Made by a program: the position numbers and the translations under genes. Shown here piece after piece: positions 6,280 to 39,230 of a stretch of DNA of 64,000 nt; position 1 is the first letter of the stretch, and every line of letters starts with the position of its first letter. This DNA comes from Treponema sp. (GTDB lineage Bacteria; Spirochaetota; Spirochaetia; Treponematales; Treponemataceae): NCBI GenBank assembly GCA_024693715.1, contig JAILKS010000044.1, positions 1 through 64,000 on the forward strand, written 5' to 3'. The notes under the pieces are model-generated. The model was not told where the DNA came from, searched no databases, and saw only the letters and a program-made list of their open reading frames with translations.

Positions 6280-8031
6280 TTAAATACCTATAAAATGTGT
6301 CTGGACTTTATCCTGAACATATTTTATAAAATCATCAATTTTTAATGTTTCCTGAGGTTTCTGACTTGAGAAACGATATCGGACACAAACCGTATTGTCT
6401 GCCTTTTCCTTTTCTCCTACGACAAGAATGTAAGGTGTTCTGTGTTCCATTGAAATCTGCTTGATTTTAGATTTCATATTATCATCACTCAGATATGCAT
6501 TAGATCTGATGTCTGCGGCAAGAAGCTTATCGTTTATTTCTTTTGCATAATCATCAAAATCATTGCTTACCGGAACAACGGCAACCTGTTCAAAGGCGAG
6601 CCAGGTAGGGAAGGCACCTGCAAAGTTTTCAATAAGGATTCCAAGGAAACGTTCAAAGCTTCCTAAAATCGCTCTATGAAGCATTACAGGATGATGCTTC
6701 TGATTATCAGCACCGATGTAAGTTGCATCAAGACGTTCAGCACTTGGAAGCTGATAGTCTACCTGAATAGTACCGCACTGCCATTCACGACCGATACAGT
6801 CATAAAGTTTAAATTCAAGCTTAGGACCATAGAAAGCACCTTCACCAGGCTGAATCTCGTATGTAAGCCCTGCTGCTGTACATGCATCTGCAAGTGCTTT
6901 TTCTGCGCGTTCCCAGGTTGCAAGATCTCCAACATGGTCTTCCGGCATTGTAGAAAATTTTACAACAAGCTCATCAAAACCAAAATCATGATAAACATTC
7001 TTTAAAAGCTTACAGAACTTTGCAACCTCTGGTCCAATCTGTTCTTCGGTACAAAGAATATGAGCATCGTCCTGAACAAAACCACGTACTCTCATTACAC
7101 CATGAAGTGTACCGCTTGGTTCGTTTCGGACATCGTGACCGAATTCAGCAAGACGGAGAGGTAAATCTTTGTATGACCGCTGACGGCTTTTGAAAATCTC
7201 CAGGGCTCCAGGACAGTTCATCGGTTTTATAGCGAACATGCGTTTTTCACTTTCCGTAATAAACATATTCTGCTGATAATGTCCCCAGTGTCCTGAACGT
7301 TCCCACAAGGTTCTCGGCATGATTGCAGGAGTATTTACTTCCTGATAACCGTCACGTTTTATCATTTTTCGAAGATAATCAAGCATTACTGTATAAATTG
7401 TCCATCCGTTCGGATGCCAGAAAATCTGTCCAGGATCTTCAGAATCAAGATGGAATAAATCCATTTCCTGACCAAGCTTACGGTGATCACGCTTTTCTGC
7501 TTCTTCCATCATTTTGATGTAGTCTTTAAGCTCATTCGGTTTTTCAAAACAGACTGCATAAATTCTTGTAAGCATAGTACGCTTTGAATCACCGCGCCAG
7601 TAAGCGCCTGCTACCTTTTCAAGCTTGAATGACTGCGCATTGATTTCCTTTGTATTTGCAACGTGTGGTCCACGGCACAAATCCATAAAGCCGTCCTGCT
7701 CGTAAGTTGTAATTACTGCATCTGCAGGCAGGTCGTTTATAAGCTCAACCTTATATGGTTCATCTGCAAAAAGCTTGAGTGCTTCGTCTTTAGAAACTTC
7801 TTTACGTACAAAGTCATGATTTCCGGCAAGGATTTTTCTCATCTCTTTTTCAACTGCAGGGAAATCGGTTTCGGTAAATTTAGTGTCGGTTGTAAATTCA
7901 AAATCATAATAGAACCCGTTGTCTATTGCAGGACCAATAGCAATTTTTGTTCCCGGATAAAGATTTTTGATTGCTTCTGCCATTACATGTGCACAAGAAT
8001 GTCTGATAATCTGTAATTTTTCGTCAGCCAT
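6280..8031 (-). CDS. thrS: Threonyl-tRNA synthetase lacking the N-terminal TGS domain
   Basis: [49 protein letters not shown] and [19 protein letters not shown] motifs; AGGAG RBS supports ATG at 8031 rather than the track start 8058. Confidence 0.95.
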
Positions 8032-8178
8032 AATAATCTCCTTTTGATTTGTTGACACTAAATTTTTATAAACACCATGTGTTTAATTCTGATTATTATA
8101 ATGAATTTTTAACATTAAGTGAATAGCACAATTTTTTAAAAAATGATAAAATAAATTATATTTTTTATGGAGTTCTGT

Positions 8179-9351
8179 ATGGCAAATGAAAATAAACGAA
8201 CAGTTAATCTTAATATTATTTCAATTATAGTTACAATCGGTTTGTTTCTGTGGTTTACCTTCCGGGCAGGCTTAATCGGAACATTTCACTGGCATCGTGA
8301 TATTTTTACTTATTATCTTATTCTTCTTGTAACCGCTTTTTTACCGCTCATTTTCGGATTAATTTTTTTATTCAAAAGAAATAAAATCACCAGGATTCTT
8401 GTTAAAGTATTTTCTATCTTTTCAATTTCACTCTGGATTATTGTCTATCTAGGACTTACTGTTCTTGGTGCAATTCCTGCTAATACAAAGGATATCCCTC
8501 TTTTAACTCAGAAAGATGTATTGCCTTTGAGTCACGAAAAGGAAAATCCTTCATTGATTGCACATTATGCTTTTGCTTCAGATCCTCACTGGGGAAGTTC
8601 AAATGCAGATGCGCAGGCAAGAATTAATATTATGAATCAGATTGAAAAAAATGATTACGATGCTTTTTTCTGTCTTGGTGATATTTCCGAAGTTGGAATG
8701 ATTCCATCTTTTTATAAAGAAGCTGTAAATGATATTTCTTCCTGCATTAAAACAACTCCAACAATGATTTTACCTGGTAATCATGATGGAATCGTAAACG
8801 GAATGCCTGCTTTCAAAAAGACGTTCATGAAAAAGGGCGATAAAATGTATTACCGGATGGACAATGGTCCTGTTCATGTTATTGTTCTTTATATGCTTTG
8901 GGATGATGCAGAATTTTCTAAAAGACAGGAAAAATGGCTTGTAAAGCAACTTGAAGAAATCCCTGAAAAAGATACTGTCATCGTTTTATCTCATTGTTAT
9001 GTGCTCAGTTCCGGATATTGGGATGAAGCGGCAAAAAAGAATTGGGGTGATATTCCAAGCGTCGTAAAACGTCTTACACCGATTTTTGAAAAATATCATG
9101 TTGATTTGCATTTGAGTGGTCACGATCACTTTTTTGAAGATCTTGAAAAGGATGATGTTGATTATTTTGTTTTAGGTGCTATGGGCGGTAAGCTTGATAA
9201 AGATTTTGTTTATAATTCACCATATTCAAAATGGCTTAATAATACAGATTTTGGTTATGTTGATTTAAAAATCTATGAACGTAAAATAATTCTTACTGTT
9301 TATACACAGTATGGAGACGCAATTTATTCAAAAGAAATTGAAACAAGATAA
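8179..9351 (+). CDS. Membrane-anchored metallophosphoesterase
   Basis: N-terminal TM segments; SDPHWG, LGDISE, LPGNHDG, LSGHDH calcineurin-like motifs. Confidence 0.85.
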   Translation: MANENKRTVNLNIISIIVTIGLFLWFTFRAGLIGTFHWHRDIFTYYLILLVTAFLPLIFGLIFLFKRNKITRILVKVFSIFSISLWIIVYLGLTVLGAIPANTKDIPLLTQKDVLPLSHEKENPSLIAHYAFASDPHWGSSNADAQARINIMNQIEKNDYDAFFCLGDISEVGMIPSFYKEAVNDISSCIKTTPTMILPGNHDGIVNGMPAFKKTFMKKGDKMYYRMDNGPVHVIVLYMLWDDAEFSKRQEKWLVKQLEEIPEKDTVIVLSHCYVLSSGYWDEAAKKNWGDIPSVVKRLTPIFEKYHVDLHLSGHDHFFEDLEKDDVDYFVLGAMGGKLDKDFVYNSPYSKWLNNTDFGYVDLKIYERKIILTVYTQYGDAIYSKEIETR

Positions 9352-25426: not shown

Positions 25427-27214
25427 TCAGGTACGTTTTACGAGTTCAAAAAGCTGTTCCCGTGAAATTACTGTATAAATAGGACGACCGTGAGGGCAGT
25501 GCGGATCTTCCAGACGGAAGGCTTCCTCTACTAACTTTGCGGCCGTTTCATCATCTAAAACACCGCCATCTTTAATAGCCGCCTTACATGCGGTCATTGC
25601 AGCAATAGATCTGATTATCTGTTCAACCTCGACCTGTTTTACAAAAATCATTGTTCGTAAATCATATTCAGTCAAAGTCCATCTTTCCGGAACTGAAGTT
25701 ATATGCCATTCTCCATCTTTGATTTTTGTTGTATTAAAACCAATTTGTGTAAGACGGTCTTTAAGTTTTTCGATCTGATTATCCTGCGTTTTTGAATCTG
25801 TAAGGATTTTATATGGAATTAAAAGCTGCTGATTTGCTCCCTGCGAGTTCATTATTTTATCAAAAAGTATGCGTTCGTGGGCGGCATGCTGATCGAAAAA
25901 ATAAATGCAATTGTTTTTTTCAGCAAGAAGAAATGTTCCAAGACAGCTTCCGATAAATCTTATTGCATCATTTTGTTGATTTTCATCAGTTTGTTCCCAA
26001 GCGTCTATGATTGCCGGTGAATAATTGTCAGAAGGTGAAGCTGCTTCGTATGCTTTTTGAGCAAGAGAATTAATATCATTGCTTTTATTATTAGAGAAAT
26101 ATCTTGTGCGGAAATCTGTTTTAGAAAGTGATGAATATTTGTTTGTGTAACTTATGTGATTTGTATATGTCTGTTCCCTGATTTCATCTGCCGGTTTGTC
26201 TTCTAAAAAAATCTGCTTTGTGTATTTTAAGAAAAATTGTTTTATTGTCGTGCTCAAGGCATGATGAAGTTCAGAACTGTCGTAAAATTTCACTTCTTTT
26301 TTTGCAGGATGAATATTAAAATCAACAAGTTTCGGATTAATTTTTATAAATACTGAGGCAAAAGGATATGTTCCGTTGGGAAAAAAGCCTTGCCCCCCAT
26401 ATTCAACTGCCTGAACCAGCGAGTATTCCTGAATTCTACGCCCGTTTATAAAAATCGATATGTCCTTTTTATTAGGTCTGCTTATTGCCGGCTCTCCGAT
26501 AATTACATTAAAAGAAAAATCTTTGTTTGAAAAATAATCATTTGAGTTGAGTTCAAAAAATAAATCCTGATTCTGTTCAAGAGAATTTGCGTTTATGAAT
26601 CTTTCTTTTAATGTCTGATATTTCGGTAAATCACATTTTGTTTCTCCGTCATTTATCAGTCTGAAGCCGATTTCAGGGTGTGCAAGCGCCTTTTCTATGA
26701 ATGTATTTTTGCACATTACAGCTTCTGAACCGGGTCGTTTTAAAAACTGTCTTCGTGCAGGGAAATTTTCAAAAAGTCCTTCTGACTGCACAATAGTTCC
26801 TTTAATTTCAGGAACTTCTTCCATTAAATGATCTTCTGTAATGCTTGCTTTCATTTTCCAGCAGCCGCTGATTATGCTTAATCTTGAAACTGCCGCTATT
26901 GATGATAATGCTTCGCCACGAAAACCGAGGGTCGTTAAATTCAATAAGTCGGTTTCTGTTTCGATTTTACTTGTTGCATGTGGTCTTGCGCAGTTTTGAA
27001 GATCCTCTTTTGTCATTCCGCAGCCGTCATCAATTATCCTGATTTTATCTATACCGCCGCCATTTATTTCAACCGTTATAAATGATGCCCCTGAGTCAAT
27101 CGAGTTATCAAGAAGCTCGCGGACAATTGCATTAGGACGGTCAATAACTTCTCCTGCAGCAATTTTTCTTGCGACTTCTACATTAAGCTGGCGGACTGGA
27201 TTTTTTAAACTCAT
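25427..27214 (-). CDS. mutL: DNA mismatch repair protein MutL
   Basis: IAAGEVIDRPNAIVRELLDNSIDSGA, TTLGFRGEALSSI; C-terminal CPHGRPI. Confidence 0.97.
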   Translation of the reverse strand: MSLKNPVRQLNVEVARKIAAGEVIDRPNAIVRELLDNSIDSGASFITVEINGGGIDKIRIIDDGCGMTKEDLQNCARPHATSKIETETDLLNLTTLGFRGEALSSIAAVSRLSIISGCWKMKASITEDHLMEEVPEIKGTIVQSEGLFENFPARRQFLKRPGSEAVMCKNTFIEKALAHPEIGFRLINDGETKCDLPKYQTLKERFINANSLEQNQDLFFELNSNDYFSNKDFSFNVIIGEPAISRPNKKDISIFINGRRIQEYSLVQAVEYGGQGFFPNGTYPFASVFIKINPKLVDFNIHPAKKEVKFYDSSELHHALSTTIKQFFLKYTKQIFLEDKPADEIREQTYTNHISYTNKYSSLSKTDFRTRYFSNNKSNDINSLAQKAYEAASPSDNYSPAIIDAWEQTDENQQNDAIRFIGSCLGTFLLAEKNNCIYFFDQHAAHERILFDKIMNSQGANQQLLIPYKILTDSKTQDNQIEKLKDRLTQIGFNTTKIKDGEWHITSVPERWTLTEYDLRTMIFVKQVEVEQIIRSIAAMTACKAAIKDGGVLDDETAAKLVEEAFRLEDPHCPHGRPIYTVISREQLFELVKRT

Positions 27215-27480
27215 TTTCTTGTACCGATTAATTCATTATCAGCGTTAAAATCATCTAATACCGGCTGATTGTTTTTATCAAGAGGAGAAGGCTCTGTCAT
27301 TAAAATCTGAATGCGTCCTTCAACCTTATTGAGCTCTTCTTCCATTCCTTTAGAAAGTTTTATTCCTTCTTCAAAATTTTTTAAGGCTTCTTCCAGAGAA
27401 ATATCATCACGTTTTATGTTATTTGTGATTTCCTCAAGCTTTTTGAGCTTTTCTTCAAAGTTATCCATTTGTTCCTCCAT
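27211..27480 (-). CDS. xseB: Exodeoxyribonuclease VII small subunit
   Basis: FEEKLKKLEEITNNIKRDDISLEEALKNFEEGIKLSK; upstream of and overlapping xseA's end. Confidence 0.93.
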   Translation of the reverse strand: MEEQMDNFEEKLKKLEEITNNIKRDDISLEEALKNFEEGIKLSKGMEEELNKVEGRIQILMTEPSPLDKNNQPVLDDFNADNELIGTRK

Positions 27481-28726
27481 CGGATTGAATGTCTTTTACT
27501 GCTGCGAATATTTTACCTTTTGCAGGTTTTATTATGATATTCTGTTCTTTTTTCAGCTGACTGGAATTTCTTATGACAGTTCCATTTTCGTCGGTTACCA
27601 TCGAATATCCTCTGTCTAAAATTACCTGAGGATTTGCCTGTTCTAAAACAATTCTGCAGCTGTTAATCCTGTTTTTTAAATCCTTGACTTTTTCGTTAAG
27701 ATTATTTACGAGCGCTTCTTTTGCAGATGAAAATCTGTTGAGAATCGGCTGCTGTATTCTTCTGAAACGAATTTCCAGGTTTTCAGGATTAAAGCTTTTT
27801 ATTAATAATCTTGCATTTGCGACCTTTTGTTTTGTCTGATTAAGAAGAGTCTTTTTATATTCATTTATTTGAGAATTAATTGCGCTCAATTCCGGAACTG
27901 CAATTTCAGCAGCGGCAGAAGGAGTCGGTGCCCGAACATCGCTTGCAAAATCAATTAATGCCCAGTCAATTTCATGTCCAACTGCGGAAATAACTGGAAT
28001 TTCTGATGCGGCTACTGCGCGGACAACCTCTTCTTCACTAAAAGCAAGCAAATCTTCAAGTGAACCGCCGCCTCGTCCTACAATCAGCACATCACACATT
28101 TTATAGAAATTTGCAAGCTCTATCATTTTTACGATGGATTGGGCTGCTCCGTCTCCCTGAACAAGTGAAGGAAACAGAATGATATTTATTCCGGGATTTC
28201 TTCTGACAGCTACATTTATAATATCTCTTATGGCGGCACCTGAAGGACTTGTAACTACGCCTATTTTTTTTGGAAAGAACGGAAGTTTTTTCTTTTTTGC
28301 GTCATCGAACAATCCTTCCTGTGAAAGCTTTTGTTTTCTTTGTTCAAGCATAAGAAGAATGTTTCCGCTACCGATGTTTTCCATCGTTTTTACAATTATC
28401 TGATAATTTCCCTGAGGACCGTAGACAGATATTTTACCTGTTACTCTGACCTTATCTCCATCCTTTGGTTTAAAATTAAGATTATATGAATCATATTTAA
28501 ACATTACTGCTTTTATCTGAGCCTTATCATCCTTAAGGGTAAAATAATTATGACCTGAAGAATATGGACGCCAGTTTGAGATTTCGCCTTCAATGCAGAC
28601 AACAGGGAAGGCTTGTTCAAGGATATCTGTAATTAACTGTGTAAGCTGTGAAACTGTAAAAGCCTGTAATTTTTGAAATTGTTCATCCATATAAAATATT
28701 TTATTCAAATCTTTTAACTTATTCAA
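27461..28726 (-). CDS. xseA: Exodeoxyribonuclease VII large subunit
   Basis: CIEGEISNWRPYSSGHNYFTLKD; GVVTSPSGAAIRDI; VGRGGGSLEDL. Confidence 0.96.
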   Translation of the reverse strand: MNKLKDLNKIFYMDEQFQKLQAFTVSQLTQLITDILEQAFPVVCIEGEISNWRPYSSGHNYFTLKDDKAQIKAVMFKYDSYNLNFKPKDGDKVRVTGKISVYGPQGNYQIIVKTMENIGSGNILLMLEQRKQKLSQEGLFDDAKKKKLPFFPKKIGVVTSPSGAAIRDIINVAVRRNPGINIILFPSLVQGDGAAQSIVKMIELANFYKMCDVLIVGRGGGSLEDLLAFSEEEVVRAVAASEIPVISAVGHEIDWALIDFASDVRAPTPSAAAEIAVPELSAINSQINEYKKTLLNQTKQKVANARLLIKSFNPENLEIRFRRIQQPILNRFSSAKEALVNNLNEKVKDLKNRINSCRIVLEQANPQVILDRGYSMVTDENGTVIRNSSQLKKEQNIIIKPAKGKIFAAVKDIQSDGGTNG

Positions 28727-28744: not shown

Positions 28745-30271
28745 GTGATGAAAACTATTGTAATTTTAACACAGAATAATTCGTCTTATTCAGACAAAAA
28801 AGAATTTGACGGTAAAAGTGCCGAAGACCTTGTAAAGGAATGGGCATTAAAAGTTAGTGATAAATATGTTTATGTACAAAAGGGAAATTGCGTAAGAGAA
28901 CTTTTGTGTAACATCAACGAAGCTTGTAAAAAAGAAAATGCAGATACTGTTATTTTTTCGTTTGATGACCTTCCATTCCTTGATGAAAAGCTGACTAAAT
29001 CTTTATTGGACAGTCATTTTGATTTTAAATCTGAATATACTTATGCAGACGGTTATCCTTATGGTTTTGCTCCGGAAGTGATTGACAGTGGTGCAATTAA
29101 TATTTTGTATGAGCTTTCAAAAACAACAAAAGAAAAAGAGGGTAATGCGCCTGTAAACAAGGATTGTATTTTTAATTTCTTAAAATCAGATATCAATTCC
29201 TTTGAAGTAGAATCTGTTATTGCAGAGGAAGATTACAGACTGTACAGATATAATTTCTGCTGTGATAAAAAGGAAAATTTCATTGCCTGTAAAAAGCTTT
29301 TTGAGCTTACTAAAAATAAAAATCTTTCGGTAAACGAAAAATGTCTTGAGGCTGTAAAAAGTGCGGATATTTTACAAACAGTTCCCGGCTTCTATAATTT
29401 TCAGATAGCATCAAAATGTAGTGGAGGCTGTTCTTTCTGTCCATATCCTTCATGTTATAAAAATAAGTTTAATAAGGAAGTTCAAAATTCTTCGGATTTG
29501 ATGAAGTTTGAAGATTTTTCTAAAGCGATAGATGAGATTTATGATTTAAGTGAAAATGCCGTAATTTCACTTTCTTTATGGGGAGAATGTTTTAATCATC
29601 CTGATTTGGTGAAATTTGTTGAAAAGGTCTTAAGCTATAAATCACTTTCTGTGTTTATTGAAACTGACGGTCTGCTTGTTGATGAAAATATATGTAATAG
29701 TCTAAAGACTGTTGTAGACAAAGCAGAAGCAAGGACAAACGGCTTTGAAAAAATTTATTTTGCAGTATCAATGGATGCGTTTACAGCAAAAACTTATTCA
29801 AAGCTTCATAATTGCAGTGAACAGTTGTTCGAAAAATGCGTTAATTCAATTTCGCTTTTAAAGAATGTTACAGATGAGGTTTATCCTCAGTTTGTACGAA
29901 TGAATGATAACGAAGAAGAGCTTGAAAATTTTTACCGCTATTGGAATGAACAGACTAATGCTTCAGGCGGAAAGCTTATAATACAAAAATATGATTCCTT
30001 TTCCGGCTTATTGCCTGACTACAAACCTGCAGATTTATCACCGATAGAAAGAAACGTCTGCTGGCATTTGCGCCGTGATTTATGTATTTTGAACAATGGG
30101 GACAGCCCTCTTTGCAAAGAATTCATTTTCAATAACATTACAGGAAATGTATTTAAAGAAGGGTTTGAATCTGTCTGGTTAAAAACAAAAGAAATTGTAA
30201 AGCAGCATTTAGAGAATAATTATTGTAAAGAATGTAAGGTGTGCGATGAATACTATACCTATAACTTTTGA
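28745..30271 (+). CDS. spiro-SPASM radical SAM protein with N-terminal nucleotidyltransferase-like region
   Basis: Radical SAM CSGGCSFC, C-terminal SPASM-type cysteines (CKEFIF...CKECKVC), N-terminal SFDDLPFLDEKL. Confidence 0.8.
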   Translation: MMKTIVILTQNNSSYSDKKEFDGKSAEDLVKEWALKVSDKYVYVQKGNCVRELLCNINEACKKENADTVIFSFDDLPFLDEKLTKSLLDSHFDFKSEYTYADGYPYGFAPEVIDSGAINILYELSKTTKEKEGNAPVNKDCIFNFLKSDINSFEVESVIAEEDYRLYRYNFCCDKKENFIACKKLFELTKNKNLSVNEKCLEAVKSADILQTVPGFYNFQIASKCSGGCSFCPYPSCYKNKFNKEVQNSSDLMKFEDFSKAIDEIYDLSENAVISLSLWGECFNHPDLVKFVEKVLSYKSLSVFIETDGLLVDENICNSLKTVVDKAEARTNGFEKIYFAVSMDAFTAKTYSKLHNCSEQLFEKCVNSISLLKNVTDEVYPQFVRMNDNEEELENFYRYWNEQTNASGGKLIIQKYDSFSGLLPDYKPADLSPIERNVCWHLRRDLCILNNGDSPLCKEFIFNNITGNVFKEGFESVWLKTKEIVKQHLENNYCKECKVCDEYYTYNF

Positions 30272-31217
30272 TGAACATCAGATTAAGCGCGCAATAATTG
30301 GCGGCAGTTCCGTAAAAAAAGATAAATTATTGAATATCTCTGTAATTCTTTTAAACAGCAGCGGAAGTCATTTTAAATTAAATGTTTTTGAGAATTTAAT
30401 CGGCTGTAATTTCGATTCAATTATTTCTATAGAAAACGATTCGAAAAATTATTCAATAGATGATATTGCCAGAAAATTTCCTCAGATAAAATTTATCGTA
30501 CCACTGGAAGAAGCTACGGAAGGTGAAATGATTAATCTTGCGATGAGTGAAATTACATCAGACTACGCACTTGTAATAAAAGACAGCCTTTATATTCCGT
30601 CTGGATTCATCCTTTCAAATCTTGCACAACGTCTTACAGAAGAAGGAATATATTGTGTTGTTCCCAGATTATCAGATAAAAACAAAAACGGAATAGCATC
30701 TTTATATACTCCTGGAGCAGAAAAATCTCATTTTATCATTGATTCTTCATCTATCGTTAAAGACGGCTTAAGGACTGTTTACCCGTTTGATGGTATTGCC
30801 CTTTATAATAGAAAGAAATTTATTCAGCTTGGCGGATTTGATTATACGATAAGAACCTCTTACTGGCAGAATCTTGATCTTGCAATACGTTCATGGTTGT
30901 GGGGTGAAGAAACAAAGCTTACAACAATGCTACAGTTTTCGTATGTTGATGAAATCCCTATGGAAGATACAACTTTTAATCAGGATTATTTACGATATTA
31001 TCTTAAAAACGAGCTTCCTAAATTTAAAATCGATAAAGCATATATTTCCCGTTCTTCATTTTTAAGATTTTTCTCTAAATCTTCATGTGGAATTCTTGAA
31101 GCGAGAAGACATTTCAGATTTGCAAAAAACTGGGTAGAAAAGAATAAATATAATTTTAAAAAAGATTTGCAGACTTTTATTTCCAGATGGAATGTTACGG
31201 AAGAAGATGAAAACTAA
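30246..31217 (+). CDS. Glycosyltransferase family 2-like protein
   Basis: LLNISVILLNSSGSHFKLNVFENLIGC...LAMSEITSDYALVIKDSLYIPSGFI layout; overlaps the upstream gene by 26 bp. Confidence 0.5.
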   Translation: MNTIPITFDEHQIKRAIIGGSSVKKDKLLNISVILLNSSGSHFKLNVFENLIGCNFDSIISIENDSKNYSIDDIARKFPQIKFIVPLEEATEGEMINLAMSEITSDYALVIKDSLYIPSGFILSNLAQRLTEEGIYCVVPRLSDKNKNGIASLYTPGAEKSHFIIDSSSIVKDGLRTVYPFDGIALYNRKKFIQLGGFDYTIRTSYWQNLDLAIRSWLWGEETKLTTMLQFSYVDEIPMEDTTFNQDYLRYYLKNELPKFKIDKAYISRSSFLRFFSKSSCGILEARRHFRFAKNWVEKNKYNFKKDLQTFISRWNVTEEDEN

Positions 31218-33603
31218 ACGCGCGGTAATCATTCAATGCAGACTTTCCTCATCAAGACTTAAAGAAAAGGCTCTTCTTAAAATCGGTGATAAAACTATTC
31301 TTGAGATGGCAATGCAGGCTATGTTAAAGGTAAAGGCCGACAGATATTTTGTTGCGACAGATGAAAAATCTTTGCCTTATCTTAAACCTGTAGTCCTTAA
31401 TAACGGATACGAAATTTTTGCCGGTGATTTGAATAATGTTCTTGACCGTTTCTGTAAGCTTATAAAAAAAATAAAGGTCGATACTGTCATAAGGGCTACT
31501 GCAGACAATCCTTTTTTGATTTACGAAGCGGCTTGTCAAAGTGTAGATGAATTTGAAAAGCTTAATAAATCAGGTTCTCCGTGTGAATACTTTACATTTT
31601 CCGGACTTCCTCATGGAAGCGGGGTAGAAATATTCAATGCGAATTCTCTTTTATTGGCTCAAAAACTGACAGATTCTTCTTACGACAAGGAACATGTCGG
31701 TCCTGCTTTGTATAATCATCCTGAAAAATTTAAATGTGTTTTTGCAAAAGCTCCTTCCGGATTCAAGCACCCCCAGTTACGGACTACTGTCGATACTTAT
31801 TCTGATTATTTAAGATGTATATGTGCTTATAATCATCTTACGAAAGAAAAAAAACAGTCTAAACCGTTTGAATGTGAAAAAATAATAGAAGCATTCAGTT
31901 CAAAAGAAGTTCTTAATCCTGTAATTTATATTCCATCTGTTCAAAAAGGACACGGAACGGGACATTTACGGAGAATTTTAAATGCATGCACAGGGGAAGA
32001 AAGCTTTGTTTATATTCCAAAAAATCATACGTTAAAGGAAACTGAAGGTCTTTTACAGGAAGCATATGAAAAAGGGTTGAGGCTTTCTCAAATTATAGAT
32101 ACACTTCCGGATGAATCCTTGCAGCCCGTTTATGTTACAGATTGTTTTAAAACTTCAAAGGAACAATATTCATCGCTTGAAAACGGAAAATGTATTTTAA
32201 GTATTGATGAAGGATCTGAAAATAAAGACTGTTCAGATTATCTTCTTGATATAATCCCTTCTGCAGATGAGAACAAAAACGTCAATTATTTTAACTCTTC
32301 TTTGATTGAAAAACCGGAAAATATCAGGAAAACCCCGGTAAAAAAAATACAAAAGGCTTTAATCTGTTTTGGTGGTGAAGATCCTTTGAAAATGACAGAG
32401 CCTGTTAAGAATATACTGGAAAAAATTCTTCCACAAGCAGAAATTACATGCATTACTAATCCTGTAAAAAATTTAAAGGAAAAATTATACCAGTATGATC
32501 TTGTAGTAACTCACTATGGACTTACGGCGTTTGAAGCGATGTATGCAAAATGTGCCGTTTTACTTCTTTGTCCGTCGAAACTTCATGAAAGACTTTCTAA
32601 AAAATATTCTTTTGCATATATACCGTTTAATAAAATTACAGAACAGAATTTTGAAGCAGCCTTAAAAAATGAAAATCTTTTCTGCAAAAATATAATCAAG
32701 ACTCAAAAGACATCGTTGAAGACTGTCGTAAAAACAATATCTTCCGGAATTAAAAATACATGTCCGGTATGCAGACATAATAATATGTTCGATAAAGTAG
32801 TTTTCAGAAATGAAAACAGGACATTCAGAAGTTGTAGTACATGCGGACTTATTTATTTTTCTTACACACTGGAAAAAGAAAAAACATACGAAAAGGCATA
32901 TTTTTTCGAAGATTATAAAAAACAATATGGTAAAACCTACGAGGAAGATTTTGATTCTATTAAAAAGCATGGTTTAAAACGCGCTTCAATAATCAATTCA
33001 CTTTGTCGCACAAAAGAAAAAAATCTTTTTGATATAGGTTGCGCATATGGTCCTTTTTTATCGGCCGCTTATGATAAAGGTTTTGTTCCGTTCGGTACAG
33101 ATATTTGTGAACCTGCAGTTAAATATGTAAAGACAAAACTTCAGTATCCTGCATGTACAGGTGTTTTTCCGCAGATTGATACTGGTAAAGAATTCGGAAT
33201 ATCTGAATTTGATGTTTGTACAATGTGGTACGTAATAGAACATTTTAAAGATCTGGATTCAGTTCTTCAGAAAGTAAATTCAATTCTAAAAAAGAACGGA
33301 ATATTTGCTTTTTCAACGCCAAGTGGAAGCGGTATTTCCTCCAGATTAAATAAGGATTCTTTTTTGGCAAACAGTCCTTCTGATCATTATTCAATATGGC
33401 TTCCATTTAAGGCAAATAAGGTTTTAAAAAAATATGGTTTTAAGGTAATAAAGATTGTTTCAACCGGTCATCATCCGGAAAGATTTACTTTTATAAAATG
33501 TAAAAAGAATGGTTTTGTCTGGAAATGTATAGATAAAATCAGCCGGTTGTTTATGCTTGGTGATACTGTTGAAATATATTGCAGGAAGGTAAGGCAGATA
33601 TGA
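31207..33603 (+). CDS. Fusion protein: SpsF-like cytidylyltransferase + SpsG/PseG-like domain + zinc-ribbon/SAM methyltransferase
   Basis: MKTKRAVIIQCRLSSSRLKEKAL (SpsF-like); ALICFGGEDP...VVTHYGLTAFEAMYAKCAVLLLCPS (SpsG-like); CPVCRHNN...LFDIGCAYGPFLSAAYDKGF (methyltransferase). Confidence 0.75.
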   Translation: MKTKRAVIIQCRLSSSRLKEKALLKIGDKTILEMAMQAMLKVKADRYFVATDEKSLPYLKPVVLNNGYEIFAGDLNNVLDRFCKLIKKIKVDTVIRATADNPFLIYEAACQSVDEFEKLNKSGSPCEYFTFSGLPHGSGVEIFNANSLLLAQKLTDSSYDKEHVGPALYNHPEKFKCVFAKAPSGFKHPQLRTTVDTYSDYLRCICAYNHLTKEKKQSKPFECEKIIEAFSSKEVLNPVIYIPSVQKGHGTGHLRRILNACTGEESFVYIPKNHTLKETEGLLQEAYEKGLRLSQIIDTLPDESLQPVYVTDCFKTSKEQYSSLENGKCILSIDEGSENKDCSDYLLDIIPSADENKNVNYFNSSLIEKPENIRKTPVKKIQKALICFGGEDPLKMTEPVKNILEKILPQAEITCITNPVKNLKEKLYQYDLVVTHYGLTAFEAMYAKCAVLLLCPSKLHERLSKKYSFAYIPFNKITEQNFEAALKNENLFCKNIIKTQKTSLKTVVKTISSGIKNTCPVCRHNNMFDKVVFRNENRTFRSCSTCGLIYFSYTLEKEKTYEKAYFFEDYKKQYGKTYEEDFDSIKKHGLKRASIINSLCRTKEKNLFDIGCAYGPFLSAAYDKGFVPFGTDICEPAVKYVKTKLQYPACTGVFPQIDTGKEFGISEFDVCTMWYVIEHFKDLDSVLQKVNSILKKNGIFAFSTPSGSGISSRLNKDSFLANSPSDHYSIWLPFKANKVLKKYGFKVIKIVSTGHHPERFTFIKCKKNGFVWKCIDKISRLFMLGDTVEIYCRKVRQI

Positions 33604-35222
33604 ATGTTTTAATACTTGGAGCGGGATTAATGCAAAAACCCGCAATTTTATCGGCAAAGGAACTCGGCTTTACTGTAAATGTAATTGATGCAGATGAAAA
33701 TGCAGTTAGCATAAAATATGCAGATACTTTCAGAAAAATTGACCTAAAGGCAAAGGATGAAATTCTTGAATATGCCGGTGAATTAAAATCTAACGGCGGA
33801 CTTTGTGCCGTGTTTACTGCCGGAACAGATTTTTCTTCTTCAGTTTCATATGTTTGTGAAAAAATGGGCTTACCTGCTCATTCATATGAAGCATCTTTAA
33901 ATGCAAGCATCAAAACAAGAATGCGTGAATGCTTTGATAAAAGTCATGTTCCGTCTCCAAGCTTTATCAAAGTAAATAAAAATGATTTGAATGATGCTTT
34001 GTGCAGTAAGGTTTTAGAGCGATTGTCTTTTCCGTTTGTTGTTAAACCTGTTGATAACATGGGAGCAAGAGGCTGCCGCATGGTTCGTAATGAAAACGAA
34101 CTTGTAAGCGCGGTTAAAACAGCAGTTGATTTTTCAAGAACACAAAATGCAATCATTGAAGAATATATGGATGGCCCTGAATATTCAATAGATGCTCTTG
34201 TTTATAACGGTACAATGACAGTTACCGGTTTTGCTGAACGACATATTTATTACCCTCCTTATTTTATTGAAACAGGACATACAATGCCTGCTGTCCTTTC
34301 TAAAAAGATGCATGATGAACTTATATCTGTATTTGCACTTGGAGTAAAATCTTTGGGATTAACCTGTGGTGCGGCAAAGGCAGATATAAAATATACAAAA
34401 AATGGTCCAATGATTGGTGAAATTGCAGCACGTCTTTCAGGCGGTTATATGTCCGGCTGGACTTATCCGTATGCATCAGATTTGAATCTTACAAAGCAGG
34501 CACTTTTAATCGCCTGTGGAAAAACACCAGACGATTTATTACAGCGAAGGGAAAGAGTAGATTTTAATCCAGGAAAAGGAAATTTCGAAAAACCTTATGA
34601 ATTGTTTGAAGTAAAAAGCGTTCGCTGCAGTGCTGAACGTGCATGGATTTCAATTCCCGGTAAAGTAAAATATATCGAAAATATTGATGATTATACTGAC
34701 AGGGCTGTTTTTGATATTCTTCCACGTGCAACAGTAAGTACAGGAAGTGAGGTTGATTTTCCAAGAAATAATGTTTCAAAATGCGGAAATATTATCAGTG
34801 TAAGTAATGATTATAATATTGCCGTTGAAGCAGCGGAAAATGCCGTATCGAATGTTTTTATTACTCTTGAACCTTTTAATCCTGCTACAGATAAATTCTT
34901 GAATTATGAATATGCAGATGATGAAGAAAAATTCCCTCCGAGTGCGTTTGGAGAACTGTCAGAAGATCAGCTTAATGAAATTCCTGATGTAATAAAAGAA
35001 AAAGAAAGTTTAAAAAATAATGTACCAAAATTCATAAAATCTGCCGATTATATAAAAAGGGTAGACTGGACTTATAACTCAATTTATCAAATTCTTGAGA
35101 AATTTGATGTTTTAAGGCCGGATCATCCTGCGCTTGATGGAAAAAGATTCTGGAAAGCGTTGTTCAGAGGCGGCTTACAGGCTTGTGTCTATGTAAGTGA
35201 CAGTACGAGAAGAGAGAAATAA
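33600..35222 (+). CDS. ATP-grasp domain ligase
   Basis: NVLILGAGLMQKPAI; FPFVVKPVDNMGARGCRMV; IIEEYMDGPEYSIDALV; GEIAARLSGG. Confidence 0.85.
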   Translation: MNVLILGAGLMQKPAILSAKELGFTVNVIDADENAVSIKYADTFRKIDLKAKDEILEYAGELKSNGGLCAVFTAGTDFSSSVSYVCEKMGLPAHSYEASLNASIKTRMRECFDKSHVPSPSFIKVNKNDLNDALCSKVLERLSFPFVVKPVDNMGARGCRMVRNENELVSAVKTAVDFSRTQNAIIEEYMDGPEYSIDALVYNGTMTVTGFAERHIYYPPYFIETGHTMPAVLSKKMHDELISVFALGVKSLGLTCGAAKADIKYTKNGPMIGEIAARLSGGYMSGWTYPYASDLNLTKQALLIACGKTPDDLLQRRERVDFNPGKGNFEKPYELFEVKSVRCSAERAWISIPGKVKYIENIDDYTDRAVFDILPRATVSTGSEVDFPRNNVSKCGNIISVSNDYNIAVEAAENAVSNVFITLEPFNPATDKFLNYEYADDEEKFPPSAFGELSEDQLNEIPDVIKEKESLKNNVPKFIKSADYIKRVDWTYNSIYQILEKFDVLRPDHPALDGKRFWKALFRGGLQACVYVSDSTRREK

Positions 35223-36253
35223 TGAAGAAAATAATTTGTGTACTGACATTTTTAGTTTTCTCTTTGGCAGGTGTTTTTGCTGCTACAGATATTCCTCTTT
35301 TGAAGTCTGCAAAGGAAAGCGGGATAACCTTCTATTGGGATTCTCTTTCTGAAACAGGCATTCTTGAGAAGAATGGACATCAGGTCACTTTCAGAAAAGA
35401 TGAAAACATACTGCTTTTGGACAGTGAAACAATGATTGTTTCTGAATCTGCTGTTATAAAACACAATCAGGTTTATGTTTCCCAGAAGTTTCTTGATGAT
35501 ACTTTAAATTTCTTTAATAAAAATAATTCTACGATGTTCAAGGTAGGGGCAATTGTAATTGATGCAGGACATGGCGGAAAGGATCCGGGTGCCTTGAAAA
35601 CTTATACCGTAAACAAAAAGAGTATTACGGTTCGTGAAAAAGATGTTAATTTGAAAGTTGCAAAGCTGCTTGCACAGCGTTTAAAAGCTTCTTATCCGGA
35701 TAAAAAAATAATTCTTACCAGAGATAAGGATGTATTTTTAAGTCTTGGAGAAAGAACAGATATAGCAAACAATGTAAAGGTCGAAAAAAATGAAGCGGTT
35801 CTGTTTATTTCGATACATCAGAATTCTTCATTAAATAAATCATCTTCAGGCTATGAAGTGTGGTATTTATCACCGGGTTACAGAAGAAATGTACTTGATA
35901 AATCTGCAGTTGAAGATGACCAGTCATTGTATCAGATTTTGAACATCATGCTCGAAGAAGAATATACTACCGAGAGCATTATGATAGCGAAATTCATTAT
36001 GGACGGACTTGCAGCACAAATAGGCAAAGAGTCAAAGCCCAGAGGAATTAAGGCTGAAGAGTGGTTTGTTGTAAAAAACGCCAACATGCCGAGTGTATTG
36101 ATTGAACTTGGATTTGTCTCAAATGAAAAGGAAGCAATGCTTCTGAATGATGACAAATACTTGAAAAAAGCAACGCTTGGAATATATAATGGCATCGCAG
36201 CGTTTATTACACATTTTGAACGTTCAAGAGGATTTACAACAAATGAAAACTAA
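35222..36253 (+). CDS. N-acetylmuramoyl-L-alanine amidase (Amidase_3)
   Basis: IVIDAGHGGKDPGA; LTRDKDVFLSLGERTDIAN; SIHQNSS; SVLIELGFVSN. Confidence 0.92.
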   Translation: MKKIICVLTFLVFSLAGVFAATDIPLLKSAKESGITFYWDSLSETGILEKNGHQVTFRKDENILLLDSETMIVSESAVIKHNQVYVSQKFLDDTLNFFNKNNSTMFKVGAIVIDAGHGGKDPGALKTYTVNKKSITVREKDVNLKVAKLLAQRLKASYPDKKIILTRDKDVFLSLGERTDIANNVKVEKNEAVLFISIHQNSSLNKSSSGYEVWYLSPGYRRNVLDKSAVEDDQSLYQILNIMLEEEYTTESIMIAKFIMDGLAAQIGKESKPRGIKAEEWFVVKNANMPSVLIELGFVSNEKEAMLLNDDKYLKKATLGIYNGIAAFITHFERSRGFTTNEN

Positions 36254-36701
36254 TTTCTTCAGTACAAAAAAGATTCCTTTCTATATCGTGTTTGTGCTTG
36301 CCCTGGTCCTGATGCTTTCGCTCATATGGTTTTTCTGCAATGCGCACGGCAAACGCCGTACCTTTGTTTTTCCTTCCGCTGATGGAGGAAAAAACGTTGT
36401 GGAAACAAGATACCTTCCGAAGAACCCTAATAAAACAGCGGTTCATTATTATGTAGATGAAATTCTACTTGGAAGCAGTATCGAAAGAACCATGATGTTG
36501 TTTGCACCTGGAACAAAGGCTTTATCATGCATCGAAAATGATAAATGCCTTTACATAAATTTGTCATCGGATGTTATTTCATCTGGTGATGATGTCATAA
36601 GCATCAAGGATGGGATTAAATTATTGAAAGAGAATATTTCTCACAATTTCAAGAAATTTAAAACCATTGAGGTGTTTGTGGATGGTAAGCACGCTTTCTA
36701 A
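36243..36701 (+). CDS. GerMN domain-like membrane protein
   Basis: N-terminal TM; YVDEILLGSSIERTMMLFAPGTKALS...LSSDVI pattern; ATG overlaps the amidase stop. Confidence 0.6.
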   Translation: MKTNFFSTKKIPFYIVFVLALVLMLSLIWFFCNAHGKRRTFVFPSADGGKNVVETRYLPKNPNKTAVHYYVDEILLGSSIERTMMLFAPGTKALSCIENDKCLYINLSSDVISSGDDVISIKDGIKLLKENISHNFKKFKTIEVFVDGKHAF

Positions 36702-36709
36702 AAAAAGCG

Positions 36710-36738
36710 TTGACAAATTAAAATACTTATTGGATAAT
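36710..36738 (+). promoter_or_regulatory. Sigma-70-type promoter of flaA
   Basis: TTGACA (36710-36715) - 17 bp - GATAAT (36733-36738). Confidence 0.75.
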
Positions 36739-36785: not shown

Positions 36786-37889
36786 ATGAAGAAAACTTTA
36801 GTTTTAATTGCAGCTTCACTGCTGCTCTTGGGTGGCGTAACTTTTGCTGAAGAAGCTATGCTCATCGATTTCACACGGTTGGAACAAGATTGTTGTGATA
36901 ACGGAGATGGATCTACACAGAACAGTCGTACAGTAATGGACTTCTCGATCAGTGCAGGTGCTACTTTCTCTGAATCACAGAAAGATCTTATGAAGACTTC
37001 ATTGGCTCTCCCTGAATGGGAAATTGTGTTAAATTCTTCTGCTAAGAATGTAGCTAGCCTGGCCGATTCAAAAGTTGTTGCAGCTCACGTAGAAGAAAGA
37101 TCTGATCAGCCTTTTAAAGGTAAAAATGTAATGGGTGTTCGCGTTGTATTCCCAACATGGAACTCTAATGCAAATGCCAGAATTATCCCTCCATTCGAGA
37201 TTCCTGCTTATCAGCCATTGTCAACAGCAGATGCAGAAGGAAATCGTACTCCTGTAGGAGAAACAGAAGATACTTCTAAATTCAATGATGCTGAAAACAA
37301 AGACTATGAAGCAACATTGTTCGAAGGTGGATATGGCGTTGTTAAGAATGTTGGAACAATCAAAGCTATCAAAGTTACAACAATGGGTATGAACTATCCA
37401 CACGGACTTTATGTTCACCTTACAGATAATGATGGAATTGACAGAAGATACTTCATGGGATATTTGATGTTCGATGGATGGAAAGAACTTCAGTGGAATA
37501 ACCCACAGTACATTTCAGAAATCCGCAACAGAGAAATCCGTGTATATCCTGTATATCCAAGAGGAACTCCATTCGTAAAATTCTCTGGCTTCGAAATTAC
37601 ACGTGATGCTGCTCACATTGGTGGTGACTTCATCGGTTATTTCGTAGACGTAAAGATTCTTTATGATCAGGCAGTTCTTAAATCTGAACGTGATATCGCA
37701 GATGAAAACTTGTGGAAAATCATTACTAAGAAAGAAGAAGCACGCTTGAATGCTGAAATGCAGAAATTCGGAACAAAACAGGTTAATCGCTTTATCGAAA
37801 AAGTTAAGATCGATAAAGTTAATAACTTTACAACAAGCTTGAATGCTGAAGGTTCTGGAAATGCTCCAACTGATAGAAATGCTAAATAA
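36786..37889 (+). CDS. flaA: Flagellar filament sheath/outer layer protein FlaA
   Basis: Signal peptide and FlaA pattern (MLIDFTRLEQD, MGVRVVFPTWNSNANARIIPPFEIPAYQP). Confidence 0.92.
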   Translation: MKKTLVLIAASLLLLGGVTFAEEAMLIDFTRLEQDCCDNGDGSTQNSRTVMDFSISAGATFSESQKDLMKTSLALPEWEIVLNSSAKNVASLADSKVVAAHVEERSDQPFKGKNVMGVRVVFPTWNSNANARIIPPFEIPAYQPLSTADAEGNRTPVGETEDTSKFNDAENKDYEATLFEGGYGVVKNVGTIKAIKVTTMGMNYPHGLYVHLTDNDGIDRRYFMGYLMFDGWKELQWNNPQYISEIRNREIRVYPVYPRGTPFVKFSGFEITRDAAHIGGDFIGYFVDVKILYDQAVLKSERDIADENLWKIITKKEEARLNAEMQKFGTKQVNRFIEKVKIDKVNNFTTSLNAEGSGNAPTDRNAK

Positions 37890-37920
37890 TTAGTCAGCTT
37901 TCTTAAATACTTATTCGAAA

Positions 37921-37952
37921 AAGCACTTTAGATTTTCTAAAGTGCTTTTTTT
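37921..37952 (+). terminator. Terminator after flaA
   Basis: AAGCACTTTAGA-TTT-TCTAAAGTGCTT followed by T-run. Confidence 0.9.
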
Positions 37953-37976
37953 TATTTTATGTGTTATAATGTTCCT

Positions 37977-39230
37977 ATGGATAATAATTTTGAAGTTCCT
38001 GCAAAAGAGAAAATACGACAGACTTACGAAAAATATAATGATTATTTTTTTGAAATAATGAATAACATCGTCGTAATTCTTCAGAATAAAATTAAGCTCG
38101 GTGCTCAACCTACTTATAAAAGCAGGGTAAAGAGTTTTAAAAGTTACTATAAAAAGGTTCTTAGGTTAAAATCGGATCAGGCTATTCAGAATGATAAATT
38201 GGTATGTTTGACTGATATGATGGGAATCCGAATGATATGTGCTTTTCTTGAAGATATAAATCTTGCCGTTGAACAGTTAAAAACGATTTTTGATATCAAG
38301 GAAATTGAAATAAAAGGTGCAGATAAGAAATTTTCTGAATTTGGTTATGAGTCTATTCATGTTCTTGTAAAACTTCCTGAAAATTGTATTCCGGAAAGAA
38401 AAAATAAATATAAGGATTTAGAGCCTTTACCAGATGATGTTGTCTGTGAAATACAGATTCGTACTATTTTGCAGGATGCGTGGGCAGAGGTTGAACATGA
38501 ATTGATTTATAAGACAGAATTTTCACCGTTCGATGCTCCCTTGCGCAGAAAGCTTGCATCAATAAATGCATCACTTACTCTGGCAGATATTACATTTCAG
38601 GAAATACGTGATTATCAGAAAAAGCTTCAGAAAGAAGTTGAGGACAGACGTCAGACTTTTTATCAGATGGCAGATAATCTTTTGAATGAGAAAAAAGAAA
38701 CAAAAGAAGAGAAAATAAACAGAATCACACCTTTCGTACAAGGTTCAATAGATGAGCTTTTACTTCAGGCTATCCATCTTCATAATGAAGGAGAGCTTGA
38801 ACAGGCAGTCGCAGTTTATACAAAGATTCTCAATGCAGTTCCTCCTACAGATAAGAATGTTATTGCGGTAATTTCAAAGCATAGGGGAATGGCTTATTTT
38901 TCTATGAATAAATTTGACAGCGCGATAGATGATTTTAATACAAGCCTTAAAAATGATCCTAAGGCATATAGAACGCATTATTATCTTGGAATTGTTTATT
39001 CGATTAAAAAGGAATATGAAAAGGCCATTTCGTATTTCGATGAGTCGCTCGCTATAAATCAATTTCAGGCACATACTCATTTCCGTCGTGCAATGGCTTA
39101 TTTCGAAATTCAGGAATATGAAAAATCGATGAATGATTTAAATTCTGCCCTGAATCTTGGAATGGATAAAGATGAATGCAAGGTATTGCAGGATAAGCTT
39201 TCGAAAAAATTCGGCATGAGCATGAAATAA
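37977..39230 (+). CDS. RelA/SpoT-type nucleotidyltransferase fused to TPR repeats
   Basis: KSRVKSFKSYYKKVLRL...DMMGIRMICAF...CEIQIRTILQDAWAEVEHELIYK; C-terminal TPRs. Confidence 0.85.
   Translation: MDNNFEVPAKEKIRQTYEKYNDYFFEIMNNIVVILQNKIKLGAQPTYKSRVKSFKSYYKKVLRLKSDQAIQNDKLVCLTDMMGIRMICAFLEDINLAVEQLKTIFDIKEIEIKGADKKFSEFGYESIHVLVKLPENCIPERKNKYKDLEPLPDDVVCEIQIRTILQDAWAEVEHELIYKTEFSPFDAPLRRKLASINASLTLADITFQEIRDYQKKLQKEVEDRRQTFYQMADNLLNEKKETKEEKINRITPFVQGSIDELLLQAIHLHNEGELEQAVAVYTKILNAVPPTDKNVIAVISKHRGMAYFSMNKFDSAIDDFNTSLKNDPKAYRTHYYLGIVYSIKKEYEKAISYFDESLAINQFQAHTHFRRAMAYFEIQEYEKSMNDLNSALNLGMDKDECKVLQDKLSKKFGMSMK

Follow-up and report, generated by a model that had tools for sequence, protein, structure and literature searches.

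The subject of this analysis is a 64,000-nucleotide stretch of a Treponema sp. genome (contig JAILKS010000044.1, positions 1 to 64,000; hereafter the window), and within it a block of six genes at positions 28745 to 36701 with the flagellar gene flaA beside it; window features are numbered from the first letter of the whole stretch. Comparison of sequences across the spirochaetes makes it quite probable, in our view, that the block supplies enzymes for the middle, activation and tailoring steps of the pathway for the O-glycan of spirochaete flagellin, FlaB, which is based on a nonulosonic acid (NulO), a sialic-acid-like sugar. The first gene encodes spiro-SPASM, a protein related to radical S-adenosylmethionine (SAM) enzymes, from which the radical SAM motif appears to have been lost repeatedly. 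The genes assigned to the pathway are the following.

28745-30271, plus strand: spiro-SPASM (TIGR04321, 487.7 bits against a cut-off of 250), starting at GTG 28745 or ATG 28748; SpsF-like domain at residues ~1-200, BtrN-like radical SAM barrel at ~201-425, SPASM/twitch domain at ~426-508
30246-31217, plus strand: putative GT-A-fold glycosyltransferase (GT), 323 amino acids (aa), assigned from structure matches of an AlphaFold2 model (predicted local distance difference test, pLDDT, 88)
31192-33603, plus strand: SpsF-SpsG-methyltransferase triple fusion, 803 aa (CTP_transf_3, PseG-like and Methyltransf_23)
31192-31866, plus strand: SpsF domain of the fusion, a cytidine monophosphate (CMP)-sugar transferase (PF02348, 5.9e-30; QxRxxSxRLxxKAL conserved)
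31912-32721, plus strand: SpsG/PseG-like domain of the fusion (TIGR03590, weak; GxGHxxR and GGED motifs conserved)
32722-33603, plus strand: SAM-dependent methyltransferase domain of the fusion (PF13489, 1.7e-17; N-terminal Cys cluster CPxC...CxxCG)
33579-35222, plus strand: ATP-grasp carboxylate-amine ligase, 547 aa, ATP-grasp_4 and LAL_C2 (PF13535, 4.8e-17)

Six overlapping genes leading into flaA had been described in an earlier account of the window made from its letters (the sequence-only reading), and all of them, flaA included, were found where stated. All seven genes lie on the plus strand, with called overlaps of 1-77 nt, some of which shrink if likelier start codons are used (ATG at ~33600 for the ATP-grasp gene and at ~36243 for the GerMN-like gene). 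In the fusion, the SpsF domain conserves its RxxSxRLxxK nucleotide-binding motif (R17, S20, R22, L23, K26), while the SpsG domain conserves GxGHxxR and matches TIGR03590 weakly (residues 380-462, 20.6 bits against a cut-off of 153). PDB matches of the ATP-grasp ligase include the L-amino acid ligase BL00235 and BacD. Neither Pfam nor NCBIfam matched the GT gene above cut-off (one homolog scores E 0.023 to Glycos_transf_2), and as a sequence search against the PDB returned chance matches only, a fold search was used instead. Its predicted model has a GT-A fold, which bears out the earlier description of the gene as GT-like, and all 50 listed PDB matches are polypeptide N-acetylgalactosaminyl (GalNAc)-transferases (template-modelling, TM, score 0.54-0.63). 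These are protein O-glycosyltransferases, yet likeness of a modelled fold does not fix the substrate of the GT. The gene is present in 79 of the 80 named loci and adjoins spiro-SPASM in nearly all Treponema-like loci.

The order of the genes is conserved well beyond the window. Spiro-SPASM, GT, SpsF, SpsG and methyltransferase follow one another in 45 of 47 loci of the same genus or order, one of these with an insert, and the ATP-grasp, amidase, GerMN-like, flaA and RelA-TPR (tetratricopeptide repeat) genes come after them in most order-level loci where the contig is long enough. The gene run persists in the same class in families f6, f8, f9 and f11 (in f8 no amidase was detected), and T. vincentii has the full run; spiro-SPASM, GT and fusion stand together with the ATP-grasp gene elsewhere in a T. 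pallidum-type genome of 1,139,633 bases and in a T. denticola-type genome (L089), whose spiro-SPASM is 94% identical to that of T. putidum. In the deeper families f15 and f39 spiro-SPASM adjoins SpsF, which suggests that these two were the first to be paired. In one f15 locus (L102 12145-13746, minus strand) the gene after spiro-SPASM encodes 534 aa that combine an SpsF domain with an SpsG-type THGTGH motif; this protein has no methyltransferase domain, and no GT is detectable alongside. The sequence-only reading had linked the SpsF/SpsG-type domains to activated-sugar pathways, those of nonulosonic acids among them, and had suggested a flagellar or envelope glycan or a modified peptide as product, to be checked by neighbourhood conservation across spirochaetes. 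The neighbourhood is indeed conserved and the genes do co-occur, and of these proposals an activated-sugar pathway of nonulosonic-acid type tied to the flagellum is supported.

Genome-wide statements rest on family searches, and the phylum tallies on 152 good-quality spirochaete genomes. Spiro-SPASM was found in 144 of the 152, and NeuB, the NulO synthase, in 143. At a completeness of at least 90%, spiro-SPASM is absent from the genomes of family f7, presumably of Borrelia type, and from G204. The f7 genomes have flagellin and lack both spiro-SPASM and NeuB, G204 has neither flagellin nor spiro-SPASM, and the gap in G083 concerns NeuB only. That flagellated Borrelia-type genomes are without NeuB indicates that NulO is separable from the mere possession of flagella. 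In a set of 22 genomes, spiro-SPASM, NeuB, the ATP-grasp ortholog and MptE/Maf proteins were, where each was searched for, present in the same 15 (the cassette genomes) and absent from the same 7.

Candidates for further steps were sought in the rest of this genome. A PseB/SpsM-like dehydratase (L214 6250-7776) and a PseC-like aminotransferase (7780-9018) are adjacent and score below equivalog cut-offs; many cassette genomes, the T. pallidum-type one among them, likewise have such genes side by side. NeuB occurs as a single copy, alone at L086 9429-10535 (NeuB 3.2e-56, SAF 2.5e-9). Four MptE-like (Maf-type) proteins are encoded, one of which matches the PseD model weakly; at L220 5661-8610 (minus strand) two proteins of this type are adjacent, one with a weak PseD flagellin-modification match. 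Eight of the 15 cassette genomes, this one and the T. pallidum-type genome among them, gave no PseH-like acetyltransferase at E<=1e-5, and in none of the 15 did one exceed the curated cut-off. Since PseH was not found, we regard the pathway as a variant that works like the canonical Pse pathway rather than as that pathway itself. With the PseB, PseC, PseI and PseH models all below cut-off, the NulO may be of pseudaminic or of legionaminic stereochemistry.

The pathway would begin with a PseB/SpsM-like UDP-N-acetylglucosamine 4,6-dehydratase and a PseC-like aminotransferase, both encoded elsewhere, which would produce a uridine diphosphate (UDP)-4-amino-sugar. The ATP-grasp ligase would couple a hydroxy acid to the amine, probably replacing PseH, after which the SpsG domain would release UDP, the lone NeuB/SpsE, encoded elsewhere, would add phosphoenolpyruvate to give the NulO, and the SpsF domain would form CMP-NulO. 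The methyltransferase domain may then O-methylate the acyl chain, and a Maf-type transferase, the GT-A transferase of the operon, or both would carry the sugar to Ser/Thr residues of FlaB while this is still in the cytoplasm, awaiting export. Spiro-SPASM would most likely bind or hold the CMP-sugar with SpsF and GT, an ancestral radical SAM step (perhaps a BtrN-like sugar oxidation) being optional and discarded in many lineages. The sequences themselves show the identities and order of the genes, their co-occurrence, the state of the motifs and the selection acting; the substrates of these enzymes, the order of the ATP-grasp and methyltransferase steps and the scaffold role of spiro-SPASM are what we infer here.

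Such a pathway would suit what is reported of a related flagellin. FlaB of T. denticola carries a glycan of 450.2 Da that is essential for filament assembly (Kurniyati 2017, as cited in PMC9481697). Subtraction of 274.1 from 450.2 leaves 176.1 Da, or C7H12O5, which fits a methoxy-trihydroxyhexanoyl group. The T. denticola glycan is reported to bear a methylated trihydroxyhexanoyl group. A methylated acyl group of this kind would need a methyltransferase and an amide-forming ATP-grasp enzyme. The precedent is close in being a spirochaete flagellin glycan from a species whose type of genome has the cassette, although that cassette is split, with ATP-grasp elsewhere, and in those parts of the literature that were consulted the glycan genes are not assigned.

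Two further systems bear comparison. The sfmABCDE genes of Shewanella oneidensis encode NeuB, a thiamine pyrophosphate (TPP) enzyme, a reductase, a methyltransferase and an ATP-grasp_4 protein, and are required for modifying flagellin with a 274 Da mono-acetyl pseudaminic-type residue and with a group of 236 Da that bears extra methyls (PMC3765264). The likeness extends to the NeuB-type synthase, SAM methyltransferase, ATP-grasp_4 protein, nearby Maf genes and lack of a PseH ortholog; unlike the treponeme block, sfm has the TPP enzyme and reductase and places NeuB in the operon, and no SpsF-SpsG-methyltransferase fusion or radical SAM/SPASM protein is reported from it. B. subtilis cannot make legionaminic acid without spsC, D, E and G, and it requires spsF to transfer it (PMC7439481). 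Enzymes of SpsC/E/F/G type and the SpsM dehydratase are held in common, but the B. subtilis pathway serves the spore crust and uses the acetyltransferase SpsD, and neither an ATP-grasp protein nor a methyltransferase or SPASM protein is reported for it.

Several points weigh against assigning the block to a flagellin NulO pathway. NeuB and the PseB-like, PseC-like and Maf genes all lie outside the operon, no PseB, PseC, PseI or PseH model reaches its curated cut-off, and the assignment leaves unexplained why the operon should carry a GT alongside Maf. The 22 genomes were picked partly by absence of spiro-SPASM, NeuB was searched for in all of them but the f3 members G043, G046, G049 and G057, and, of the genomes without the cassette, which include those of f3, flagellin presence was scored for f7 and G204. 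Furthermore, the co-occurrence amounts to about three clade-level losses, which are few independent events, making the statistic weaker than the count of genomes.

Turning to spiro-SPASM, the window protein is a full member of TIGR04321, a family filed with radical SAM/SPASM of which many members now are without CX3CX2C. Its N-terminus, which the sequence-only reading had called nucleotidyltransferase-like, is SpsF-related both by profile alignment (hhalign probability 96.7, E 3.7e-10, 149 columns) and by structure. An AlphaFold2 model (pLDDT 92) has PDB matches that include BtrN and 6oew; by target, the TM score is 0.71 to BtrN and 0.70 to a Leptospira cytidylyltransferase (root-mean-square deviation 3.7). 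The fold also matches anSME and MoaA, with BtrN the top match by sequence profile and by fold, and Glu281 of the GE motif is conserved in the partial triosephosphate isomerase (TIM) barrel. RxxSxRLxxK is absent from the N-domain in those aligned members with a visible N-terminus, suggesting that, despite its fold and homology, this domain is a degenerate nucleotidyltransferase and not an active SpsF. BtrN, a 2-deoxy-scyllo-inosamine dehydrogenase, likewise has a radical SAM barrel with a twitch/SPASM domain and one four-Cys auxiliary [4Fe-4S] cluster, while spiro-SPASM carries the SpsF-like N-domain in addition and, in many species, no longer has the radical SAM motif.

The window copy keeps the CX3CX2C motif (KCSGGCSFC; C225/C229/C232), as do 97 other homologs, together with SPASM Cys 439/457/497/500; the motif-bearing state is a minority one in its genus. 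The motif has gone from 41 of the 139 homologs compared, which, because 80 named loci among them are nearest relatives, is not a census; the 41 include the T. pallidum-type, T. denticola-type and T. vincentii proteins and most of the window's genus. YPLSSLYRP, for example, replaces CPQSCSYCP in the T. pallidum-type protein, and Pfam detects SPASM but not Radical_SAM in this and in the T. putidum protein. By contrast, the four SPASM cysteines are intact in 138 of the 139. On a tree built without the motif columns 10 changes are needed, at least 6 of them forced by well-supported branches, and 15 losses if regain is excluded, suggesting that the motif was lost independently some 6-15 times. Apart from the three Cys, motif-less members are clearly less conserved only at F143, Y234, W279, H285, F419 and P455. 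The ratio of non-synonymous to synonymous substitution rates (dN/dS) is 0.07-0.20 in close motif-less pairs where dS is computable, which indicates purifying selection.

Three artefactual explanations of the missing cysteines were considered and rejected. Misalignment is contradicted by the conserved flanking LRTLPAFYxIQ and by how few other positions lose conservation; draft-assembly error, by losses in the complete T. putidum and T. vincentii genomes and in two single-contig genomes (L134, L137, L088, L089); and pseudogene decay, by open frames and by the dN/dS range of the motif-less pairs. In one homolog, L046 (genome G011), CX3CX2C and all four SPASM Cys are replaced (SPASM positions D, Y, S, Y), with an open frame and most conserved residues remaining, so that it is apparently an iron-sulphur-free member.

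These results bear on a possible role of spiro-SPASM in active radical SAM catalysis, for instance as a BtrN-like sugar dehydrogenase, with the radical step essential to the pathway. Such a role would agree with BtrN being the best match and with the many copies that keep CX3CX2C. We nevertheless consider it doubtful, given that the motif-less homologs, several of them from complete genomes, are conserved in the rest of the protein and under purifying selection. Retention of motif-less genes implies that the radical step is not essential family-wide, though it may be usable where the motif is kept, and radical SAM chemistry, which the sequence-only reading had combined with ATP-grasp chemistry and sugar activation in one pathway, is not supported as its defining step when the cluster motif is lost so often and the gene kept. 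A BtrN with its radical SAM (RS) cluster knocked out still assembles the auxiliary cluster (PMC9012708), making a SPASM-only protein chemically plausible. We see roughly an even chance that spiro-SPASM has undergone many-fold conversion, through loss of its catalytic [4Fe-4S] site, to a non-radical SPASM-cluster protein with a dead SpsF-like domain, and that spirochaetes, T. pallidum among them, probably cannot build their flagella without it as partner to the CMP-NulO synthetase or the glycosyltransferase. Literature searches on spiro-SPASM, TP gene names and pseudo-radical SAM proteins did not find the repeated loss of radical chemistry described. As to the earlier suggestion of an undescribed biochemical system, the pathway is not wholly so, given a known FlaB glycan in T. 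denticola and a close functional precedent in Shewanella sfm.

Radical SAM-SPASM and ATP-grasp families are both found in gene clusters for modified ribosomal peptides, and the sequence-only reading had offered a modified peptide as an alternative product. We think this highly improbable: none of the overlapping genes of the operon was seen to encode a precursor peptide, the N-domain of spiro-SPASM is SpsF-like, and its partners are sugar-activation domains.

Downstream of the pathway genes lie the following features.

35222-36253, plus strand: N-acetylmuramoyl-L-alanine amidase, Amidase_3 (PF01520, 1.3e-47)
36177-36701, plus strand: GerMN-like membrane-anchored protein (Germane, 0.005, below cut-off)
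36710-36738, plus strand: sigma-70 promoter of flaA, TTGACA-17-GATAAT (11/12 match)
36786-37889, plus strand: flaA, flagellar sheath protein (PF04620, 1.5e-73)
37917-37951, plus strand: intrinsic-terminator-like hairpin after flaA (16 pairs, then a T run)

The amidase is probably a cell-wall gene rather than a gene of the glycan pathway. That flaA has a promoter of its own, as the sequence-only reading held, is supported by a near-consensus sigma-70 site (at least 10/12) upstream of flaA in 82 of the 83 loci scored, mostly ~50 bases before the aligned FlaA start, where shuffled sequences average below 10/12. Judged from these sites, flaA likely has its own transcription start and could be expressed separately from the pathway. 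In T. denticola, flaA is reported to share a sigma-70-driven transcript with the four genes upstream of it (PMC9481697). A reading of FlaA as the likely target is not supported. Flagellins (FlaB), not the sheath protein, are named as glycosylated in the title of Wyss 1998 (cited in PMC13144727) and in Kurniyati 2017 (cited in PMC9481697), and with its conserved promoter also in view we consider FlaA probably not to be the glycan acceptor.

Alternatively, the operon might make NulO or a related sugar for an envelope glycan, linked to the outer membrane, capsule or peptidoglycan, with amidase and flaA as incidental neighbours. The amidase and GerMN-like genes do share the gene run, the promoter of flaA means that adjacency is no proof of a flagellar role, and Leptospira is reported both to have gene clusters for NulO and to express it (PMC3438082). 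On the other hand, Maf-type flagellin glycosyltransferases track the cassette (15/15 against 0/7), and the T. pallidum-type genome keeps the whole set. T. pallidum is generally held to be without lipopolysaccharide and capsule. As FlaB of T. denticola is also known to be glycosylated (as PMC9481697 cites it), we find an envelope product improbable and retain the flagellin pathway as our preferred reading.

At the borders of the gene run, mutL and xseA (25427-28726, minus strand) diverge from the operon in an arrangement kept in many relatives, placing the operon start between xseA and spiro-SPASM. Beyond flaA, and adjoining it in most loci of the order, a gene at 37959-39230 encodes a RelA/SpoT-synthetase domain fused to TPR repeats, an architecture like that of TPR-tailed small alarmone synthetases.

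Flagellin glycosylation in T. denticola is needed for filament assembly and motility, and its genes are not assigned in the portions of the literature consulted. Our analysis would supply a concrete, near phylum-wide gene set, one that the smallest treponeme genome keeps and Borrelia-type genomes lack, with a predicted step for each gene. Within that set, a family named for radical SAM chemistry appears to lose that chemistry repeatedly while its auxiliary-cluster domain stays near invariant, and these repeated losses would constitute a natural experiment on the function of the SPASM cluster.

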